Of a stretch of DNA of 12,722 nt, positions 942-12,722 are shown piece by piece. Position numbers and translations under genes: made by a program. Positions within the stretch are counted from its first letter, which is position 1. Each line of letters starts with the position of its first letter. Below the pieces are notes generated by a model. The model saw only the letters and a list, made by a program, of their open reading frames with translations, searched no databases and was not told where the DNA came from. Source of the DNA: Candidatus Poribacteria bacterium (GTDB lineage: Bacteria > Poribacteria > DTPJ01 > WJIO01); contig WJIO01000069.1 in assembly GCA_014730235.1 (NCBI GenBank), positions 1-12,722 of the forward strand, read 5' to 3'.

Positions 942-1682
942 ATGAAAAGAATACGCAAAAATTACCTTTCGTGTATTTTGTCTCTTAGTCTGTATATTAT
1001 TATTTCCACAGGGGCTTTCAGCGACGTTACGTCAGATTTAGTAGCCCATTGGCCTATGGAAGGTGACGCAACAGATATTGTAGGCGGTTGGGATGGTGAA
1101 GTAGGCAGTGGAGGCCCTGAATGGGTAGAAGGACGGTTAGATCAAGGGGTTGCATTGGATGGCTCAAGTCATATAACTGTTCCGGGCTTTGAATTGACTA
1201 CTGATACTATAACTTTTGTAGCATGGATCAAAGGATGGAAAGCTGCTGATTGGGCGGGAATAGTCGGTTCTCGAACTCCCCTTGCTACCGAGATGATCTT
1301 TGGTGATAACGACACATTACACTACGTCTGGAACAATAACACCATGTGGGAGTGGGCTAATGGTCCGGTTATACCTCAGGATGAATGGGCTATGGCCGCC
1401 TTGACTATTGGCCCTGATGCAGGAACAGCCTATATATATACCGATGATGACGGTTTACAATCAGCAGCCCAGGAAGCTGAACATATCGAGCAAACCGTAG
1501 GTGAATTAAACATAGGATGGGTTGATTGCTGCGGTGGAACAAGATACTTTAATGGTATTATAGATGAAGTTATGATCTATAACCGGGAATTAACCGAGGA
1601 AGACATACTGCAACTAGCAACAAAAGGCCTATCTGTCGAACCTGCCGGCAAGTTGGCCATAACCTGGGGAGGATTGAAATAA
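942..1682 (+). CDS. Secreted LamG (concanavalin A-like) domain protein, copy 1
   Basis: A 246-residue protein preceded by GGAGG at 931-935. It has an N-terminal signal peptide (hydrophobic to about residue 27, ending ...STGAFS). One LamG/laminin-G-like jelly-roll domain fills the rest: it starts at DLVAHWPMEG, continues through the TITFVAWIKGW strand, and ends with FNGIIDEVMIYNRELTEEDI, the usual last strand and helix of this fold. Such domains bind carbohydrate or protein ligands; no catalytic module is attached. A conserved CCG (vicinal cysteines) follows the LNIGWV strand. The C-terminal tail EPAGKLAITWGGLK resembles a tail seen on many Poribacteria LamG proteins. The next gene is a close paralogue 67 bp downstream, probably on the same transcript. 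The ligand is not predictable from sequence. Confidence 0.85.
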   Translation: MKRIRKNYLSCILSLSLYIIISTGAFSDVTSDLVAHWPMEGDATDIVGGWDGEVGSGGPEWVEGRLDQGVALDGSSHITVPGFELTTDTITFVAWIKGWKAADWAGIVGSRTPLATEMIFGDNDTLHYVWNNNTMWEWANGPVIPQDEWAMAALTIGPDAGTAYIYTDDDGLQSAAQEAEHIEQTVGELNIGWVDCCGGTRYFNGIIDEVMIYNRELTEEDILQLATKGLSVEPAGKLAITWGGLK

Positions 1683-1749
1683 ATAGTTATCAATAAGTTT
1701 TCATCAATAAACTCAAAGAAATAAAAAACTACTTCAGGAGATAACATTA

Positions 1750-2484
1750 ATGAAAAAAATAATATTTTTTATTCCAGCAATCTGCTTATTTGTTTTTATT
1801 TCCAGCTTATACGCTGCAGATATTACCTCCGATTTGGTATCATATTGGGCGTTGGACGGTAATGCTACAGACAGCGTTGGAGCATATGACGGTGAACCAG
1901 TGGGAGATCCTGGCTGGCTAGCTGGTCGTATGGGACAGGCTGTTGAACTGGATGGCAGCAGTCAACATATACATATTCCCGGATTTGAGTTAGTTACTGA
2001 TACTATAACCTTTGCAGCCTGGATAAATGGTTGGAAAGCCGTTGATTGGGCAGGTATTGTAGGCTCACGAAATCCACTTGCTACCGAGATGATCTTTGGT
2101 GATAACGACACACTACACTATGTTTGGAATGATAATACCATGTGGGATTGGGCTACCGGACCTGTCATACCTCAAAACGAATGGGCAATGGTAGCTTTAA
2201 CAATCGGCCCCGATAAGGCAACCGGCTATGTCTACACCGACGCCGAAGGTTTGGTATCCAGCGCAAACGAAGTTCCACATATTGAGCAAACTGTCGGTGA
2301 ATTAAACATCGGTTGGGTTGCATGCTGCGGTGATACAAGATATTTTATGGGTGTCATAGACGAAGTTGCTATTTACAATCGAGAATTAACCGAAGATGAC
2401 ATACTCATGCTGGCCACAGGAGGATTAACCACTGCGGTTGAACCTGCTGACAAATTAGCCACAACCTGGGGATCCATCAAATAG
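1750..2484 (+). CDS. Secreted LamG domain protein, copy 2 (paralogue of copy 1)
   Basis: A 244-residue protein with a signal peptide of about 22 residues (ends SSLYA) and an upstream TCAGGAG at 1734-1740. It aligns almost without gaps to the preceding gene. Long blocks are identical or nearly so: FELVTDTITFAAWI, PLATEMIFGDNDTLHYVWN, HIEQTVGELNIGWV, and the CCG site. The ends differ most. It again finishes with a short linker and the tail EPADKLATTWGSIK. Its position directly downstream, with a strong terminator just after, suggests a two-gene transcript arising from tandem duplication. Expected to be exported and to bind a glycan or surface ligand through the LamG fold; the target is unknown. 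Confidence 0.85.
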   Translation: MKKIIFFIPAICLFVFISSLYAADITSDLVSYWALDGNATDSVGAYDGEPVGDPGWLAGRMGQAVELDGSSQHIHIPGFELVTDTITFAAWINGWKAVDWAGIVGSRNPLATEMIFGDNDTLHYVWNDNTMWDWATGPVIPQNEWAMVALTIGPDKATGYVYTDAEGLVSSANEVPHIEQTVGELNIGWVACCGDTRYFMGVIDEVAIYNRELTEDDILMLATGGLTTAVEPADKLATTWGSIK

Positions 2485-3850: not shown

Positions 3851-4321
3851 ATGAAACATTTGCTGATGGCAATGGTAGTATGTTTTGTTATAGCTCTAGC
3901 CGGAATTACCAGCGTAGAATCCCAGGAGTTCAATGTTGAACCAGTAATCATACAGGAGGGGATTGATAACCTGGTTCAGATCGAACAAATAGGCGCTGAT
4001 CTGGCCGAAACGGAAACCCAAAATTCAAACCAGATTGATATAAACCAGATAGGCAACGAAAATCAGATTTTTTTGACACAGCATTTTAACACTGATAGTA
4101 GTTTTCTGCTTAACCAGAACGGGAACAGCAACATGGCCGAGGTGTCTCAGGGAGAATTCACCAGCGAAGCATATATATTTCAGACCGGTGATGGCAATAT
4201 ACTCAACCTGAACCAAAATGGCAACAGCAATTTCGCCCTTATCAACCAGATGGGTAACGGTCATCACCTTTCGGTTACTCAGATAGGTTTTAATAATCTG
4301 GCAGCTATAGTTCAGCAATAA
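3851..4321 (+). CDS. Curlin-repeat amyloid subunit, CsgA/CsgB-sized
   Basis: A 156-residue protein with GGAGG at 3836-3840. The signal peptide is about residues 1-24 (ends TSVES). About six curlin-type repeats follow from residue 40 to the end, built on the pattern Q-x-G-x-x-N-x-A/I-x-x-x-Q: VQIEQIG, IDINQIGNENQI, LLNQNGNSNMAEVSQ, IFQTGDGNILNLNQNG, NSNFALINQMGNG and SVTQIGFNNLAAIVQQ. The last repeat closely resembles the final repeat of enterobacterial CsgA (recalled VTQVGFGN pattern). Size also matches CsgA and CsgB (about 150 aa). Such proteins are secreted unfolded through CsgG and polymerise as beta-solenoid fibres on the cell surface. It is convergent to the csg operon and must have its own promoter. 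Whether it is the major subunit or the nucleator cannot be decided from sequence. Confidence 0.88.
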   Translation: MKHLLMAMVVCFVIALAGITSVESQEFNVEPVIIQEGIDNLVQIEQIGADLAETETQNSNQIDINQIGNENQIFLTQHFNTDSSFLLNQNGNSNMAEVSQGEFTSEAYIFQTGDGNILNLNQNGNSNFALINQMGNGHHLSVTQIGFNNLAAIVQQ

Positions 4322-4459: not shown

Positions 4460-5170
4460 CTATGGGCTGACATAATATACTTCGTTGTTGCCCACGAAGG
4501 TTTCCTGGTATATCATCGCGCCTCTATCGCCATCATTCTGGTCAACGAAGATGTTATTGTATCCGCTGCCGTTGTTGATCTGGCATACAGCGCTCTGGTT
4601 GTCGTCGCCGGTTTGGTGGAATTCAGCGGTGTTGTAGTTGTTGCTGTATTGATACAGGCCTATGCTGTTGTCATCACCATTTTGCTCAACGGTCAATTCG
4701 TTATAACCGTTATCATACACAGTCGAAATTATTTGGGTAGCTGAAGAGCTTTCATCAATAACAGCCCTGTATGGATATTCCGGATCCTGTTTAGCCCCTA
4801 CCAGTATATTGCCATTTCCATCCTGATCAATGTAGGCGTCGTTATAAAAGTATGCCCATTGATTAAGGGTTATTGTATTGGAATATCCGGTCTGAACGGC
4901 CACAAAATCATTTAAAGCACCGCTGCCGCCCTGGTACGCAGGCATAAGAATACCCACACGTGCAATTGAGCTTCCAGAAACAGATGTATAAGCCCCACCA
5001 GAGCCGTTAATAAGGTTATCATCACCTATCTGTATGATCTGACAGCCTATATTTGTATTATGCGGTTCGCCAATCTGCTGAACATAGGCCATGTTATCGG
5101 CAGAAATCGAAGTAGAAAGGCAAATAAGCAAAGGGATCAGAATAGCAAAAAGTCTTTTATAATAAGTCAT
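4460..5170 (-). CDS. Curlin-repeat protein with two cysteines, last gene of csg operon
   Basis: A 236-residue protein with a signal peptide of 24 residues (ends TSISA). Imperfect curlin repeats follow: AYVQQIG, IIQIGDDNLI, VAVQTGYSNTITLNQ, AYIDQDGNGNILVG, LTVEQNGDDNSIGLYQY, AEFHQTGDDNQSAV and IFVDQND. It is a paralogue of the 253-aa curlin protein at 7549-8310: same repeat order, same interruption after DQDGNGN, same GLYQYSxNxNTAxFxQ block. It differs in having C43 and C196 where the paralogue has Ala and Tyr, and a non-repeat C-terminus ending NNEVYYVSP. The ATG at 5170 overlaps the TGA of the OmpA-like gene (ATGA), so translation is probably coupled to it. Likely a minor subunit, nucleator or cap; export by CsgG is inferred from family knowledge. 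Confidence 0.85.
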   Translation of the reverse strand: MTYYKRLFAILIPLLICLSTSISADNMAYVQQIGEPHNTNIGCQIIQIGDDNLINGSGGAYTSVSGSSIARVGILMPAYQGGSGALNDFVAVQTGYSNTITLNQWAYFYNDAYIDQDGNGNILVGAKQDPEYPYRAVIDESSSATQIISTVYDNGYNELTVEQNGDDNSIGLYQYSNNYNTAEFHQTGDDNQSAVCQINNGSGYNNIFVDQNDGDRGAMIYQETFVGNNEVYYVSP

Positions 5171-6378
5171 TTTTGTGCAGCCTGAAAATCATTGACAGCA
5201 ACGGGCACATTTTCGTCGGATTTATCCTCCAGCATTTCTTCATCGGACAAGGATATGTATACCTCTATGCGTCGGTTAATAGATCTGGCTTCCGGGGTTA
5301 TATTATCTACAAGGGGTTCGTAAAAGGACGCGCCAGTCACTGAAAGATACCGGGATTCGATACCTGTTCTGTATTGCAAAATCCTCAAAGCTGAGGCGGC
5401 GCGAGCCAGGGAAAGCTCCCAGTTGCTGGGGAATACATATTTATATTCCTCGGCGATCTGGTCCGAGTCGGCATGGCCTTTAATAGTGATTTTCATACCC
5501 GGTAGTATATTGCGTTTTAAAACACGACCAAGTTTCTCCAGTACTACAGAGCCCTGAGTCTTGGGATACATTTTACCGGATTCAAAAAGGATTCTTCCGT
5601 TTACTGTAAAATTAATCCTTTCATCATCCCAGTTTAACCAGATTTCGTTTCCCTCTATCTCGCTGGCAAAATTCTCTATCAAAGATGTATATATAGGTTT
5701 AAGACGTTTTACTTTTTCCCTGTTCAGGGTATCAATAGATTTATTTTCAAGGACTGAGACCTGCTTTTCAAGCTTTTTGGAATGTTCCATTAAAGATGCT
5801 ATCCGGGCGGATTTTTCCTTATCAGATTTGTTTAATTCCGCTATCTGTGCTTCCATATCCTTATTGAGCTTATTTAGCTGGTCTAAGTTTTCCTTTAACT
5901 TGCCGATCTCCTGATCTTTCTTGTCCACATCATTTTTCAGCTTTTCAATTATGACATTCCTCTGGTCAAAGGCCGGGGGTTTGTTGGGGTCTCGAACCTT
6001 CACAGGCAGGAAAGTCTGTAAATCCCTCTCCCAGTCTTTGAAGAATATATAACCCTCTCTTTCCACATCCTCACCTTTGGGTATAAAAAACACCACCAGG
6101 ACAGCGACAGCTTCACCCTCAGTTAGCTGGAAATTCACCGGTGAAATATGCATCCATGGGTCAAACTCGCAGTGAATTGAGTATTCTTCTTTGGTGGTGT
6201 TTACCACGACAATCTCTTTTGAAACTATTTTACCCGGTGACATATCCAGGGATAAGGATGTCAGTTTATCGGAAGTCTTTGGATCCATTACCTTCAATTC
6301 GCCGCTTGCGCTGGCAATTGAGGTTAAAATACATAACGCTAAAATCGTAATACCGAAAGTTTTTAGTATTTTTGACAT
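5167..6378 (-). CDS. OmpA-family peptidoglycan-binding protein with Ig-like domain and coiled coil, in csg operon
   Basis: The ATG at 6378 is chosen over a GTG 18 bases upstream (6396) because GAGGG lies about 7 nt before it and it opens directly on a signal peptide (residues 1-24, ends SIASA). The product is 403 aa. Residues ~28-130 are all-beta and Ig-like (SPGKIVSKEIVVVNTT, then FDPWMHISPVNFQLTEGE), like MSP/hydin or bacterial chaperone-type domains. Residues ~140-225 are a Lys/Glu/Leu-rich coiled coil. Residues ~250-376 are an OmpA/MotB C-terminal domain: GHADSD (D304), NWELSLARA (R326) and a final NRRIEVYIS; D and R are the diaminopimelate-binding pair in this family. An acidic tail ends the protein. 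It should lie in the periplasm, bound to peptidoglycan. It sits 19 bp after one curlin gene and overlaps the next by 4 bp. The predicted job, anchoring or chaperoning curli secretion, is inference. Confidence 0.87.
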   Translation of the reverse strand: MSKILKTFGITILALCILTSIASASGELKVMDPKTSDKLTSLSLDMSPGKIVSKEIVVVNTTKEEYSIHCEFDPWMHISPVNFQLTEGEAVAVLVVFFIPKGEDVEREGYIFFKDWERDLQTFLPVKVRDPNKPPAFDQRNVIIEKLKNDVDKKDQEIGKLKENLDQLNKLNKDMEAQIAELNKSDKEKSARIASLMEHSKKLEKQVSVLENKSIDTLNREKVKRLKPIYTSLIENFASEIEGNEIWLNWDDERINFTVNGRILFESGKMYPKTQGSVVLEKLGRVLKRNILPGMKITIKGHADSDQIAEEYKYVFPSNWELSLARAASALRILQYRTGIESRYLSVTGASFYEPLVDNITPEARSINRRIEVYISLSDEEMLEDKSDENVPVAVNDFQAAQK

Positions 6379-6397
6379 TTCAGCACCCTCTTTCACT

Positions 6398-7291
6398 TTA
6401 CCGCTGAGTAACCTTCACCGTCAGACTGTCGCCATTTATCCTGATAACAGGCTCAAGACTACCATCCTGAGCAGGGGTAATAAGGTTATCGCCCTTTTGA
6501 TGGTGAAGTATCAAATTATCGTTGCCGTTTATCTCAACCATAGATTGATTGAAATTACCTATCTGAATCTGTCTTATAACATTGGAATTCCCCCATACAT
6601 CAACACTGGCTTCGTTTCCATTCCCCTCCTGCCATTGTTGAACCACGTTGCCCTGTCCTGAACTTAAAATATCATTTTGTAATTTTATGAAAGCTTTGTT
6701 ATACTCGCCGTTTTGCCATTGGGAGATCATATTGTCGCTGCCGTCTATGAATATAAGCGCCTCGTTATAACTACCATACAGGTATTGAGTCCAACCCAGA
6801 TTATCAAAACTTTCCTGCATCCCGTCTGAATTTAAATTAAAAGATGTACCAACGCCGTTTCCATCGCCGGACATATAATTCTGTGCTTTGTTGTTGGAAC
6901 CTTCCTGGTATTGTGAAACATAACCCATGCTGCCTGTATATTCAGAAACTGCTTCGTTGTATACGCCAGATTGCTGGATATGGGCTTCGTTTCCCTGGCC
7001 TATCTGCCTTAAGGTAATCTGGTTTTCATCTCCCAACTGCTCAACATATATGTAGTTTTCAATTTCCGCATAACTGTTTGATTCAGTTCCCATCTGTTCT
7101 ATTTCAATGCTGTTATAAGTTCCGCTCTGGAGAATATAAGCGGCGTTAAGCAGACCTTGCTGATCAATATCCAGTTGGTTTTCTTCACCCACCTTGTATA
7201 TGTTGGCAGTGTTACCGGCAAGGCCTGCACTACATAAGCTTATGGTAAGAAACAGTACTATTATTATTTCTTTTTTTATTCTGGAATACAT
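6398..7291 (-). CDS. Long curlin-repeat protein (297 aa), aromatic-rich
   Basis: The ATG at 7291 is preferred over a GTG at 7303: it has GGTGG 8 nt upstream and begins directly on the signal peptide (MYSRIKKEIII..., ends about SAGLA). Curlin-type repeats run from residue ~27 to ~270: IYKVGEENQLDIDQQG, YILQSGTYNSIEIEQMG, VEQLGDENQITLRQIG, HIQQSGVYNEA, QWQNGEYNKAF, QQWQEGNGNEA and IRQIQIGNFNQSMVEI. The middle section is irregular and rich in Tyr and Trp (SQYQEGSNNKAQNY, WTQYLYGSYNEA). The C-terminus leaves the repeat pattern and is basic (RINGDSLTVKVTQR). It is about twice the length of E. coli CsgA. Predicted to be a CsgG substrate in the fibre, perhaps a scaffold, linker or nucleating subunit. 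It shares a transcript with the OmpA-like gene. Confidence 0.83.
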   Translation of the reverse strand: MYSRIKKEIIIVLFLTISLCSAGLAGNTANIYKVGEENQLDIDQQGLLNAAYILQSGTYNSIEIEQMGTESNSYAEIENYIYVEQLGDENQITLRQIGQGNEAHIQQSGVYNEAVSEYTGSMGYVSQYQEGSNNKAQNYMSGDGNGVGTSFNLNSDGMQESFDNLGWTQYLYGSYNEALIFIDGSDNMISQWQNGEYNKAFIKLQNDILSSGQGNVVQQWQEGNGNEASVDVWGNSNVIRQIQIGNFNQSMVEINGNDNLILHHQKGDNLITPAQDGSLEPVIRINGDSLTVKVTQR

Positions 7292-7354
7292 AGCGGATTC
7301 CACCCTCAGTTGAAAAGATTCTTAAGTTTTCAAACGTGCTAAAAACCCCCTGAT

Positions 7355-7548: not shown

Positions 7549-8310
7549 CTATAGCCCTGAGGAATCCTGGTCTATTCCAAGAATATTGTCGTTTCCAACA
7601 TCGTTAAGCTGGTATACCTGGAGATTATGGGAACCGCCAATACCGTTCTGATAGACACTGGTCAGGTTATTTCCGCCATCCTGGTATACTATAGCGTTAT
7701 TGTCGTCATCAATCTGTTCAAAGACCGCCGTATTATCATTTGTGCTGTATTGATAAAGACCAACGTTGTTGAAGCTACCATTCTGGTCTACACCAAAGAT
7801 ATTGGTGCCTACAGCGCCGTAGCTATACTGTGTAGCCGGTCGGTCCTCGGGATCGCCAGCAGTTTTGAGTGTTGCAAAAGTATGAATGCCAGCATGGGAG
7901 GGGCCGTCTGCGCCGGGATTTGCACCGACTACCACGTTACCGTTACCATCCTGGTCAACAAATGCATCACTAAAACTACCGGAACCGGTCTGGGTCAAAG
8001 ACAGGGTATTGGAATCACCTGTCTGAATAGCGATAAGATCGTTCTGGATATTTTCCTGATACAGGGCTTCTGCATATCCATAACCGATGATCTCGCCGCT
8101 GGGACCCACCACAGGTTGAGTTGTTATTCCAGGGCCTGTAATAAGGTTGCCATCGCCAATCTGAATTACCTGAGCGCCCACAGTTATTGTGTAGGGATAA
8201 CCTACCTGCTGGACGTAGGCTTCGTTTGACGATAAAGCATTACCACTTAAGCCCAGGATCAAGGCTAAAATAAATGTAAATGCTGAGATTCGAGCAGAAA
8301 TCTTCAACAT
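7549..8310 (-). CDS. Curlin-repeat protein (253 aa)
   Basis: The ATG at 8310 is chosen over a GTG at 8316, since AAAGGAG (8325-8319) is 8 nt before the ATG but only 2 nt before the GTG. The signal peptide covers about residues 1-27. Curlin-like units follow: AYVQQVG, VIQIGDGNLITG, IAIQTGDSNTLSLTQTG, DAFVDQDGNGNVVVG, FGVDQNGSFNNVGLYQYS, AVFEQIDDDNNAIVYQDGG, LTSVYQNG, LQVYQLN and ILGIDQ. Two stretches break the repeats (residues ~60-88 and ~130-168, rich in Gly, Pro and Thr). It aligns along its length with the 236-aa paralogue at 4460-5170 but has no cysteine and a longer repeat-bearing end. First subunit gene after csgG, separated by a 229-bp gap with its own promoter candidate and a hairpin. 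Predicted to be secreted by CsgG and to form or nucleate amyloid. Confidence 0.87.
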   Translation of the reverse strand: MLKISARISAFTFILALILGLSGNALSSNEAYVQQVGYPYTITVGAQVIQIGDGNLITGPGITTQPVVGPSGEIIGYGYAEALYQENIQNDLIAIQTGDSNTLSLTQTGSGSFSDAFVDQDGNGNVVVGANPGADGPSHAGIHTFATLKTAGDPEDRPATQYSYGAVGTNIFGVDQNGSFNNVGLYQYSTNDNTAVFEQIDDDNNAIVYQDGGNNLTSVYQNGIGGSHNLQVYQLNDVGNDNILGIDQDSSGL

Positions 8311-8400
8311 ATTCACTACTCCTTTCCTTTTCCCTTCCTAGCAATAAAATTAAAAGAAGGAAATAAGATTAAATGGATAAGTATATCCGAAACCATCCCC

Positions 8401-8539: not shown

Positions 8540-9532
8540 TTATTCCTCTTTTTCCAGCCATCCCAGGATGCGTGCGCCGTTTTCACCGCGTTCTTCTAGG
8601 TATCTCATAATTACAGGAGATTTGATGTCTTCGGAATTTTTCAAAGTCCAGTAACCGTCAAGTATACCCTCGATTACAATGGCGATTACCGCTTTGTCTA
8701 TTGCCTCCATAACGCACATCTGCAACGGTTCATTCGTTGAATAACCGGCTTCAACTTCCATAAGCCGTTTTACGTTTATAAACCGATAAAGTCCTACATC
8801 AACCTCTCTGGAAAGAACGGTTTTTGTAGCGTATACAGATTTTAGTATGGAACCTGTTTTAACAGCTATGGCCCTAAGGCAAACGGTAACCTGGTCTTTA
8901 CGGAACTGGGCAGAACCACCCAGGCCGAAATATCTTTCACCAACGCCGCCGGTTACTATGTTGGTGTCATAGGCCACAATTCCACCTTCCAGAATTATCC
9001 CGGCATACAAAAGGGGAGGTAAGGCTGGAAGACCAGTATTTTTGCCGTTATTGCCTGATTGATTATTTTTTTGTTTGTCTGAATTTTCTTTTTTGACTTC
9101 CTCTACGCTATTTTTAACCATAGAGTTAATTGCCTGATACTGCATCCTTGTGGAGCGAATTAGTTCTCTTTCCTGAAGCAGGTTATTTACACCTTCCCGC
9201 TCTACAAGAGTAAACCATCCGCAGTCCTCCAGGGCTTTTATGAGCATAGAAGCTGCTCCCTGAGTTACAGCTCTGGAATATGTTATACCTTGGGTATCAG
9301 TTTTATATTGACCGGTTTGGTCCTGGAACCTGTATACCGCAGCCACGAGTTTTTCCTCGGGAGGCGGTAAAAGAGTAAGATCGCTATAGGTAGGCGTTAC
9401 CTTCCGTCCCAGATTCGCCCTTTCTTTCATAGGGGCTTTTATGGGAGCAAGAAGGCATCCGCAGCCACTGATAAAAAAAGCAACCGCTATTACCAGGGCT
9501 GCCAGTACCGCCGTATTCCGCTTATTTATCAC
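8540..9532 (-). CDS. csgG: CsgG, curli outer-membrane secretion channel
   Basis: A GTG at 9532 is preferred: AAGGAGG lies 8 nt upstream, and it opens on a lipoprotein signal ending in the lipobox ISGC (Cys24). A GTG at 9556 would add 8 residues. The 330-aa protein follows CsgG closely: YSDLTLLPPPEEKLVAAVY, QDQTGQYK, the ALEDCGWFTLVEREGVNNLL helix, ILEGGIVAYDTN, GGVGERYFGLGG, VKTGSILKSVYATKTVLS and GYSTNEP. CsgG forms a nonameric lipoprotein pore exporting curlin subunits. Differences from E. coli (recalled sequence, about 277 aa): a ~28-residue Lys/Asn/Gln-rich insertion around 132-172, and a constriction loop (YKTDTQGITYSRAV) that keeps only an aromatic at the Phe56 position. csgF lies 73 bp upstream in the same direction. 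Confidence 0.96.
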   Translation of the reverse strand: MINKRNTAVLAALVIAVAFFISGCGCLLAPIKAPMKERANLGRKVTPTYSDLTLLPPPEEKLVAAVYRFQDQTGQYKTDTQGITYSRAVTQGAASMLIKALEDCGWFTLVEREGVNNLLQERELIRSTRMQYQAINSMVKNSVEEVKKENSDKQKNNQSGNNGKNTGLPALPPLLYAGIILEGGIVAYDTNIVTGGVGERYFGLGGSAQFRKDQVTVCLRAIAVKTGSILKSVYATKTVLSREVDVGLYRFINVKRLMEVEAGYSTNEPLQMCVMEAIDKAVIAIVIEGILDGYWTLKNSEDIKSPVIMRYLEERGENGARILGWLEKEE

Positions 9533-9561
9533 AAGCACACCCTCCTTGAAAACCACCGTGA

Positions 9562-9605: not shown

Positions 9606-10031
9606 TTAATAGTATGGCACCTCCACATCTACAGTGTCACCAGTTGTAGAATCCGCAATAGATACGGAAACACCATTTAAACCAGTATTAATGTCTATAA
9701 TATAATTTCCGACTTCATAATGACCTGCTTCTAAAGCTTCTTCGCCAAAAGCTCCATCCAGCACCTTTTGAGACAGCCTGTTGAGAACCTGCCGATTCAG
9801 GTTATATTCAAAATCCTCCAGGGGATCCCTGGTTTCTCTGAGATAATCAATAGGCTCTCTGAGCTTATTTTGCAATTGGGCTGAATTCAGAAGCCATGTA
9901 CCGTTATAAGGTGATCCGCCAAAAGATGGATTTACGGGAGTCCAGACCAACTGCGTGGCTTCGGCAGCAGTTCCTACAAAAGCGAGAATAGTAATAGACA
10001 TGAGTAAATACAGACACGTCTTTTTCACCAT
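9606..10031 (-). CDS. csgF: CsgF, curli assembly factor
   Basis: The ATG at 10031 is preferred, with AAGGAGG at 10042-10036; a TTG at 10061 would prepend 10 residues spanning the ribosome-binding site. The 141-aa protein has a signal peptide ending GTAAEA, giving a mature start TQLVWTPVNPSFGG. This and PYNGTWLLNSAQLQN match the N-terminus of CsgF, the part known to insert into the CsgG channel. A helical middle (EDFEYNLNRQVLNRLSQKV) and a beta C-terminal part (YEVGNYIIDINT, VSVSIADSTTGDTVDVEV) complete the family pattern; E. coli CsgF is about 138 aa with the same layout. CsgF works outside the outer membrane, linking the pore to fibre nucleation. It is the first gene of the - strand operon, and csgE, which often precedes it, is absent. 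Confidence 0.96.
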   Translation of the reverse strand: MVKKTCLYLLMSITILAFVGTAAEATQLVWTPVNPSFGGSPYNGTWLLNSAQLQNKLREPIDYLRETRDPLEDFEYNLNRQVLNRLSQKVLDGAFGEEALEAGHYEVGNYIIDINTGLNGVSVSIADSTTGDTVDVEVPYY

Positions 10032-10123
10032 TAGACCTCCTTCCTTCGTTAATTTACACAATACAGCCGTTGCGACATATTTTGTCTGGCTAAAGTGTTA
10101 GTCGTTCTAAAATGGATCAATAG

Positions 10124-10749: not shown

Positions 10750-10876
10750 AGTTCTGGTATTGTAGACGAATATAGGGTGCTAAAAGTTCTATGTAACATG
10801 AAATTATATCAGCTTAAAGTTAAACAGTGATAAAGATAGAATAGATTTTGAATTAATTTCTGAAAAGGAGAGCAAA

Positions 10877-12722
10877 GTGATTAAAGTCCATCTTGTCGGT
10901 AATGCGCATCTTGACCCGGTATGGCTCTGGCGTTGGCCTGCTGGTGTTGGTGAAGCTATAGCCACATGCCGATCTGCTGTGGAATGTCTTGATGAATACC
11001 CGGAGTTTGTGTTTACCCGCAGCGATATGTGGCTGCATGAGCAAATTGAAAAGCTCGATCCCGATCTATTTGAACGTATACATGAGTATGTAAAAACCGG
11101 GCGGTGGCAGATTGTAGGGGGATGGTATATCCAGCCGGACTGCAACCTTCCAACAGCCGAATCCTTCCGAAAGCATATGTCCATCAGCAAGCCGTATTTC
11201 AAGGAGAAGTTCGGTGTTGATGTTACTGTGGGTTACAACGTGGACAGCTTCGGTCATAATGCCATGATCCCCAGCTTTCTCAGGGATGAAGGCTACGACA
11301 GCTATGTCATGATGCGTCCTATGGCTCATGAAAAAGAACTGCCTGCATCTCTGTTCCGATGGCGCTCCCCTGACGGCGCGGAGGTTATAGTGTGGCGTAT
11401 ACCCAGGGCTTATACAGCATGGCAGGAAGACCTGACGGATCATATCCGTGCATCTTTGGATGTGGCCGATCCGGATATCGGTCATGTTATGTGCTTCTAC
11501 GGCGTAGGAGATCACGGCGGAGGGCCCACGAAAAAGCAGATCAAATGGCTTATGGATCACAAGAATTCATTTTCCGGTGCAGAACTGGTTTTCTCTCACC
11601 CGCGAGCTTTCTTTGATGCTGTAAAACCCAAATATGAACAACTGCCGATAGTGGACGAAGAACTACAGTTTCATGCCATAGGGTGCTATACGGTGGTACA
11701 TGAGCTTAAAAACAACATGCGCAAGGCTGAACATGGGCTTATATCGGCAGAAAAAGCCCTGAAATCCTATCCTGAAGAAGCTCCTAAAGATACAGACGTT
11801 AAAATTACCGAAGCATGGAAAAAGACGCTTTTTAATCAGTTCCATGACATATACGCTGGCACAAGCCTGGCCTCGGCTTACGACGACTCCAGGGATCAAC
11901 TTGGGTCAGCCAGGGATAATGCTGACGAGATCGTCAATCACGTTCTGTTCCGCTGCATGAGACATCTTTCAGAGGATAAATATCAGCGCATTGTGGCTTT
12001 TAACATGTCCGATCATCATTTCAAAGGCTATCTGAAACATGAACCCTGGTTTATGAAGCGTTCATTTGACGGCTGGATGGCCGACGAAGAGGGAAATCCT
12101 GTTCCTTTTCAGCGCATACAGCAGGAAAAGGTATCCGACACTAAATCCCTGATGCTCTGGCCAGGGAATATTAAACCCGGTGGACAAAGGGTGTTCCAGT
12201 TGAGGACAGATGAAGCCCCGGAAATGCCGGAAAGCGATCTTGAAACAAGCGAAAATGGTATTTCTAATCAATTATGGAAAATAGAAGCCAGCCAGGGCAA
12301 CAGCCTTTTAAAGATAATCAGAAATGATGGAACAGAATTATTCGATGAAAAAGGTTTAAGAATCCTGGTTCAGCAGGATAACAGCGATACATGGTCTCAT
12401 GGAATTGACAGATTCAGGGAACCTGTGGTAGGGGAATTTAATTTGAAAAGCGTATACGTGGAAGAATCAGGTCCTGTGAGAGCCTCCCTGCGTATAGAAG
12501 CTGAAATGGATGAAAGTCATTTAAGTCTATGGGCCCGTTTGTATAACGCTTCACCACATATAGAGCTTTATATATACATGGACTGGCGGCAGAAATTGCA
12601 GATCGGCAAGCTTGTATTGCCTTTAAATGGAAAAATTGATAATCGCCTGGATGGAATTTCCGGTGGTTATGTTCCCCGTCCACAAAACGGCCAGGAATTT
12701 CCTCTAATGGACTGGACATCAG
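10877..12722 (+). CDS. GH38 alpha-mannosidase, 5' part
   Basis: Translation starts at a GTG, six bases after AAGGAG (10865-10870). The frame stays open to the window end, giving 615 residues of a family usually about 800-1000 aa long. There is no signal peptide, so it is cytosolic. Catalytic features of glycoside hydrolase family 38 are all present: HLDPVW (zinc ligands H11 and D13), YNVDSFGHN with the nucleophile and ligand D123, GVGDHGGGP (D212-H213), and NQFHDIYAGTS with zinc ligand H323. The N-terminal alpha/beta domain and three-helix region are complete; the C-terminal beta-sandwich region begins about residue 370 and is cut off. The enzyme removes alpha-linked mannose (or related 6-deoxy sugar) with retention, using a zinc ion. 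It likely degrades imported oligosaccharides. It is transcribed away from the csg operon. Confidence 0.95.
   Translation, partial: MIKVHLVGNAHLDPVWLWRWPAGVGEAIATCRSAVECLDEYPEFVFTRSDMWLHEQIEKLDPDLFERIHEYVKTGRWQIVGGWYIQPDCNLPTAESFRKHMSISKPYFKEKFGVDVTVGYNVDSFGHNAMIPSFLRDEGYDSYVMMRPMAHEKELPASLFRWRSPDGAEVIVWRIPRAYTAWQEDLTDHIRASLDVADPDIGHVMCFYGVGDHGGGPTKKQIKWLMDHKNSFSGAELVFSHPRAFFDAVKPKYEQLPIVDEELQFHAIGCYTVVHELKNNMRKAEHGLISAEKALKSYPEEAPKDTDVKITEAWKKTLFNQFHDIYAGTSLASAYDDSRDQLGSARDNADEIVNHVLFRCMRHLSEDKYQRIVAFNMSDHHFKGYLKHEPWFMKRSFDGWMADEEGNPVPFQRIQQEKVSDTKSLMLWPGNIKPGGQRVFQLRTDEAPEMPESDLETSENGISNQLWKIEASQGNSLLKIIRNDGTELFDEKGLRILVQQDNSDTWSHGIDRFREPVVGEFNLKSVYVEESGPVRASLRIEAEMDESHLSLWARLYNASPHIELYIYMDWRQKLQIGKLVLPLNGKIDNRLDGISGGYVPRPQNGQEFPLMDWTS

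Follow-up and report, generated by a model that had tools for sequence, protein, structure and literature searches.

A curli gene cluster in a member of the Poribacteria

The window, the whole 12,722-nt stretch of DNA analyzed here, is an entire contig (G000:C434; GenBank WJIO01000069.1) from a Candidatus Poribacteria bacterium. The parent bin comprises 5.5 Mb in 451 contigs and is 91.6% complete. On its minus strand, the window carries csgF, csgG, two curlin genes, a gene for a protein built of three parts (the three-part protein), and a further curlin gene, in that order. A fourth curlin gene on the plus strand is convergent with these.

9606..10061, minus strand: CsgF (profile match)
8540..9556, minus strand: CsgG secretion channel lipoprotein (profile match, alignment)
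9047..9139, minus strand: extra stretch in CsgG, about residues 140-170, at the loop to which the N-terminus of curlin binds in E. coli (alignment)
7549..8316, minus strand: curlin (profile match)
6398..7303, minus strand: curlin, stop codon TAA at 6398, 19 nt before the three-part gene (ORF and profile match)
5167..6378, minus strand: three-part protein, 403 aa, with signal peptide, beta-rich domain, coiled coil, and OmpA domain (ORF, profile, periodicity, AlphaFold2 model)
6307..6378, minus strand: signal peptide, residues 1-24, likely cut between ASA and SG, no lipobox (sequence inspection only)
5989..6306, minus strand: N-terminal domain, residues 25-130, about eight predicted beta-strands, no detected homolog (model and searches)
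5746..5964, minus strand: predicted coiled-coil helix, residues 139-211 (periodicity and predicted helices)
5272..5562, minus strand: OmpA peptidoglycan-binding domain, residues 273-369 (PF00691), with the D304 codon at 5467-5469 and the R326 codon at 5401-5403
4460..5170, minus strand: curlin, its start at 5170 overlapping the stop of the three-part gene in ATGA (PF07012)
3851..4321, plus strand: fourth curlin, convergent with the cluster (profile match)

CsgG, CsgF, and curlin-repeat proteins occur together here, which identifies a curli (type VIII) system, and the genes surrounding the three-part gene (csgF, csgG, and four curlin genes) form a real curli cluster. The first-pass annotation had placed the three-part gene 19 bp after one curlin gene, with its stop codon overlapping the start of the next. 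We confirmed both the 19-nt gap and the ATGA overlap. The gap contains AGAGGG, a ribosome-binding-like motif, ahead of the ATG from which the 403 aa were counted; an alternative upstream GTG at 6396 is possible. Against PF07012, the upstream curlin neighbor scored 70.7 bits and the downstream one 20.7 bits, exactly at the cut-off.

A GH38 alpha-mannosidase ORF (10802-12721, plus strand) is divergent from csgF and open-ended at the contig edge. Because this divergent gene lies upstream, the contig edge does not truncate the csg cluster on the csgF side, and therefore no csgE is hidden beside csgF. At the other end, two tandem LamG-domain secreted proteins that are 70% identical to each other are encoded at 942-2484 (plus strand). 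A search of 84 phylum genomes detected CsgF in a single one. However, the LamG family has relatives in all 84 (up to 63% identity), and the tetranucleotide composition of the contig agrees with that of the bin (r 0.94). We thus ruled out bin contamination; curli probably represents a trait that a genuine phylum member acquired or that is rare in the phylum. Elsewhere in the same genome (G000:C101:4000-14000, L122), inspection revealed flagellar genes, including motA-, motB-, flgD-, and flgE-like ORFs.

Architecture of the three-part protein

The C-terminal domain matched PF00691 at residues 273-369 with 43.7 bits (cut-off 27.2; E 3.5e-11). Asp304 and Arg326, which had been named beforehand, are at those positions and are invariant across six aligned OmpA proteins. 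In the OmpA family, this Asp and Arg bind the peptide stem of peptidoglycan. Peptidoglycan binding by the three-part protein is thus predicted from family membership. Ahead of this domain, residues 136-222 show a hydrophobic periodicity of 3.5 residues, with none of 5000 shuffled sequences equally strong, which bears out the earlier call of a coiled coil of about 85 residues. The predicted helices span residues 139-211 and 215-240.

The N-terminal domain had been described as Ig-like. An AlphaFold2 model made from the single sequence, with no alignment, is all-beta with eight strands (pLDDT 61.5; mean for the full-length model, also weak, 58.5). At this low model confidence, the Ig-like label is plausible but not proven. 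In structure comparisons of this weak model (Foldseek/VIA-align), the best matches were Hsp70 substrate domains, CARM1, and epsilon toxin, all with Z of 8.0 or less. We set these aside as unrelated beta-proteins, uninformative given the model.

Relatives of the protein and its genomic setting

The N-terminal domain matched nothing in Pfam up to E 10, and we found no homologs among plasmids, PDB sequences, or viral contigs, nor a relative among 5,328 ORFs of the first 118 records. The sole match in 83 other genomes of the phylum (E 0.055) reads through stop codons. Likewise, no ortholog of the three-part protein was detected in these 83 relatives or in the curli loci examined, and no full-length homolog was found.

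The C-terminal half resembles coiled-coil/OmpA proteins that are common in the phylum, and those relatives that we inspected are sited away from csg genes. Its best solved relatives are MotS (9ljk, 3e-11) and MotB (6ysl). Like PF00691 proteins of the MotB/PomB/MotS/TssL type, it places an OmpA fold, complete with the Asp and Arg ligand residues, behind a coiled coil. Unlike them, the three-part protein has a signal peptide and a beta-rich domain and no membrane helix, and its gene lies among curlin genes with no adjacent motA. It scored far under the curated MotD, MotB, and TssL cut-offs. We rejected a flagellar MotB stator, given the signal peptide (by inspection) in place of an N-terminal membrane helix and the lack of motA in the window; the motA/motB pair of this genome is on contig C101.

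The closest paralog in the same genome (on contig C124, beside a type III pantothenate kinase gene, with a counterpart in genome G057) is 32% identical over the coiled coil and OmpA domain. It differs in having an N-terminal membrane helix and no beta domain, and in lying away from csg genes.

Another 137 curli loci served for comparison with the window: 80 were identified through CsgF on genome contigs, six came from plasmids, and the rest from three sets of genomes, each centered on one member of the Myxococcota, Nitrospirota, or Pseudomonadota. An OmpA ORF was present anywhere in the examined stretch in only seven (L052, L072, L213, L221, L222, L223, and L225). These are mostly on the opposite strand, and the same-strand pair (L213 and L223) have unrelated genes in between. 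None of the 137 has an OmpA ORF tightly linked to csg genes, the nearest being about 1.6 kb from a csg gene. The arrangement in the window is thus singular on present data: the other loci lack such tight linkage, and searches elsewhere did not recover the N-terminal domain.

These comparisons bear on the reading that a general envelope OmpA protein of this lineage was acquired by, or assembled in, the curli operon and is co-expressed there with no curli-specific role, for example in general wall tethering. The identity to the paralog, the occurrence of OmpA-type matches in 58/58 phylum genomes searched, and the confinement of the arrangement to one genome all favor it. However, an unrelated gene would be unlikely to land between two curlin genes with a stop/start overlap, and the closest paralog is different at its N-terminus, where a membrane helix takes the place of the beta domain. 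We consider this reading rather unlikely, but a serious rival.

Absence of CsgE and an enlarged CsgG loop

CsgE is absent from the window and from the whole genome, in a bin that is approximately 92% complete. It is present in 127/138 curli loci and missing in ten others besides the window. CsgE is not strictly required for curli, because some Alphaproteobacteria also lack it (PMC3521004). CsgC and CsgH were likewise not found in the genome, in agreement with the first-pass annotation; the best CsgH match had E 0.86 and 12 bits. Like the E. coli-type type VIII system, the window has CsgG, CsgF, and curlins. It differs in lacking CsgE, in that no CsgC or CsgH was found, in its longer CsgG recognition loop, and in the extra, predicted peptidoglycan-binding protein.

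The CsgG of the window carries approximately 27 extra residues. Its loop segment comprises 71 residues compared with 33-49 in other complete genes, making it the longest curlin-recognition loop among complete CsgG genes in the 137-locus survey; a longer value from L198, on a 3.3-kb contig, is probably an ORF artefact. The extra stretch aligns to about residues 103-110 of mature E. coli CsgG (assuming a 15-residue signal peptide). In E. coli, this loop stays flexible as long as no curlin N-terminus is bound, and its deletion reduces Congo red binding (PMC6957492). Because the insertion sits where the E. coli loop orders around the curlin N-terminus, it suggests that this system handles its substrate or subunits differently, an indication that does not depend on the three-part gene. 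The insertion was not seen in four checked loci without CsgE. A smaller CsgG tree gave no supported sister for the window CsgG; the main tree omits it, as its match was split.

The N-terminal domain could stand in for CsgE, capping or gating the periplasmic mouth of CsgG and delivering curlins. The lack of CsgE, which 127/138 loci possess, and the enlarged recognition loop are consistent with such a substitution. However, the domain has no similarity to CsgE, the other loci without CsgE have no such gene, and a tethered cap would be sterically odd. We regard this as very unlikely.

Comparison of the N-terminal domain with CsgC and CsgH

The first-pass annotation had related the N-terminal domain to the chaperones CsgC and CsgH. 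CsgH/CsgC profile matches occur in 84/138 curli loci. We built a profile from 84 loci and ran hhalign with left-out true members and shuffled queries as controls. The N-terminal domain reached a probability of 1.7% compared with 92-97% for left-out CsgC/CsgH members; its score was 14.6, with shuffled versions reaching up to 13.5 and left-out members 36-53. CsgC and CsgH work electrostatically, and their pI exceeds that of curlin by more than 2 units (PMC4838910), whereas the pI of the N-terminal domain is 4.78 (net charge -7) and that of the neighboring curlins is 4.05. The mature three-part protein has one cysteine rather than the cysteine pair of CsgC/CsgH. Structure searches with the weak N-terminal model gave no confident match; CsgC/CsgH were not among the matches listed, which is no evidence either way. 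What the domain shares with these chaperones (2N59; NF041112) is being a small, beta-rich, predicted periplasmic domain in a curli cluster, with a similar proposed niche; sequence, charge, and cysteine pair all differ. Kinship with CsgC/CsgH is thus not supported by these sequence comparisons.

A fusion of a wall anchor with a CsgC/CsgH-type anti-aggregation factor is accordingly highly improbable, although the N-terminal domain is beta-rich and roughly the size of an Ig domain, CsgC/CsgH were not found in the genome, and CsgH fused to another Csg protein does occur elsewhere. The profile probability, the single cysteine, and the acidic charge stand against it. The structure searches also list neither chaperone, but with so weak a model this carries little weight.

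A candidate wall-tethered accessory of curli secretion

We propose that the three-part protein, so far seen in one genome, is a periplasmic accessory, tethered to peptidoglycan, of a curli (type VIII) secretion system that is divergent and lacks CsgE. We put this reading at about 50%. The 19-nt gap and ATGA overlap, the OmpA domain with D304 and R326, the coiled coil, and the csgF/csgG/curlin context support it, together with the absence of CsgE, the failure to find CsgC/CsgH, the long CsgG loop, and the lack of a like arrangement in any of 137 other loci. Against it, the gene is known from a single genome, so conservation of its linkage is not seen in the 83 relatives or the loci examined. 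Seven other loci that lack both CsgE and CsgH have no protein of the three-part type, four CsgE-less loci have no CsgG insertion, and the full-length model is weak. Of the original suggestion of a new curli component, we retain a predicted peptidoglycan-binding coiled-coil protein in a tight curlin cluster and discard the CsgC/CsgH kinship.

In the mechanism that we envisage, the three-part protein would be exported by Sec to the periplasm, where its coiled coil would pair it with itself and its OmpA domain would grip peptidoglycan. The N-terminal domain would then be held some 11 nm or more from the wall, by the CsgG vestibule or the curlin-recognition sites. The protein could thereby keep CsgG near the wall, hold arriving curlins, or both, and might partly compensate for the missing CsgE and CsgC/CsgH. 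We infer contact with CsgG or curlins and a role in anchoring or chaperoning from this arrangement. Anchoring is better supported than subunit handling, since the OmpA domain is the one part to which an activity can be assigned. A fully wall-anchored form of curli secretion, in which a tethered new beta domain and an enlarged-loop CsgG replace CsgE and CsgC/CsgH, seems unlikely.

Accounts of curli export describe a channel in the outer membrane served by soluble helper proteins in the periplasm; the papers we found discuss neither the existence nor the manner of its attachment to the cell wall. A protein that binds peptidoglycan and is produced along with curlins would offer a direct handle on this question. 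The missing CsgE and the longer CsgG loop point to different subunit handling, and the three-part gene may represent a component of the fiber-export machinery that is specific to this lineage.

Other gene arrangements in the surveyed curli loci

CsgH is known in Bacteroidetes (PMC4838910). We detected CsgH/CsgC-type chaperones in Nitrospirota, Myxococcota, and other groups (L038:13952-14320, L042:11573-11917, and L197:10495-10881). In 43 ORFs, mostly from Bacteroidota, a CsgH-type domain is fused ahead of CsgE in one protein (for example, L060:7269-8000 and L053:3280-4062), an arrangement for which we found no published description. The L060 fusion scored 41.0 bits against NF041112 (cut-off 35), with CsgE at residues 145-234. 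In another locus (L194:8946-9635), a 230-aa protein with short repeats (DIDPKEKDLG) is encoded tightly between csg genes.
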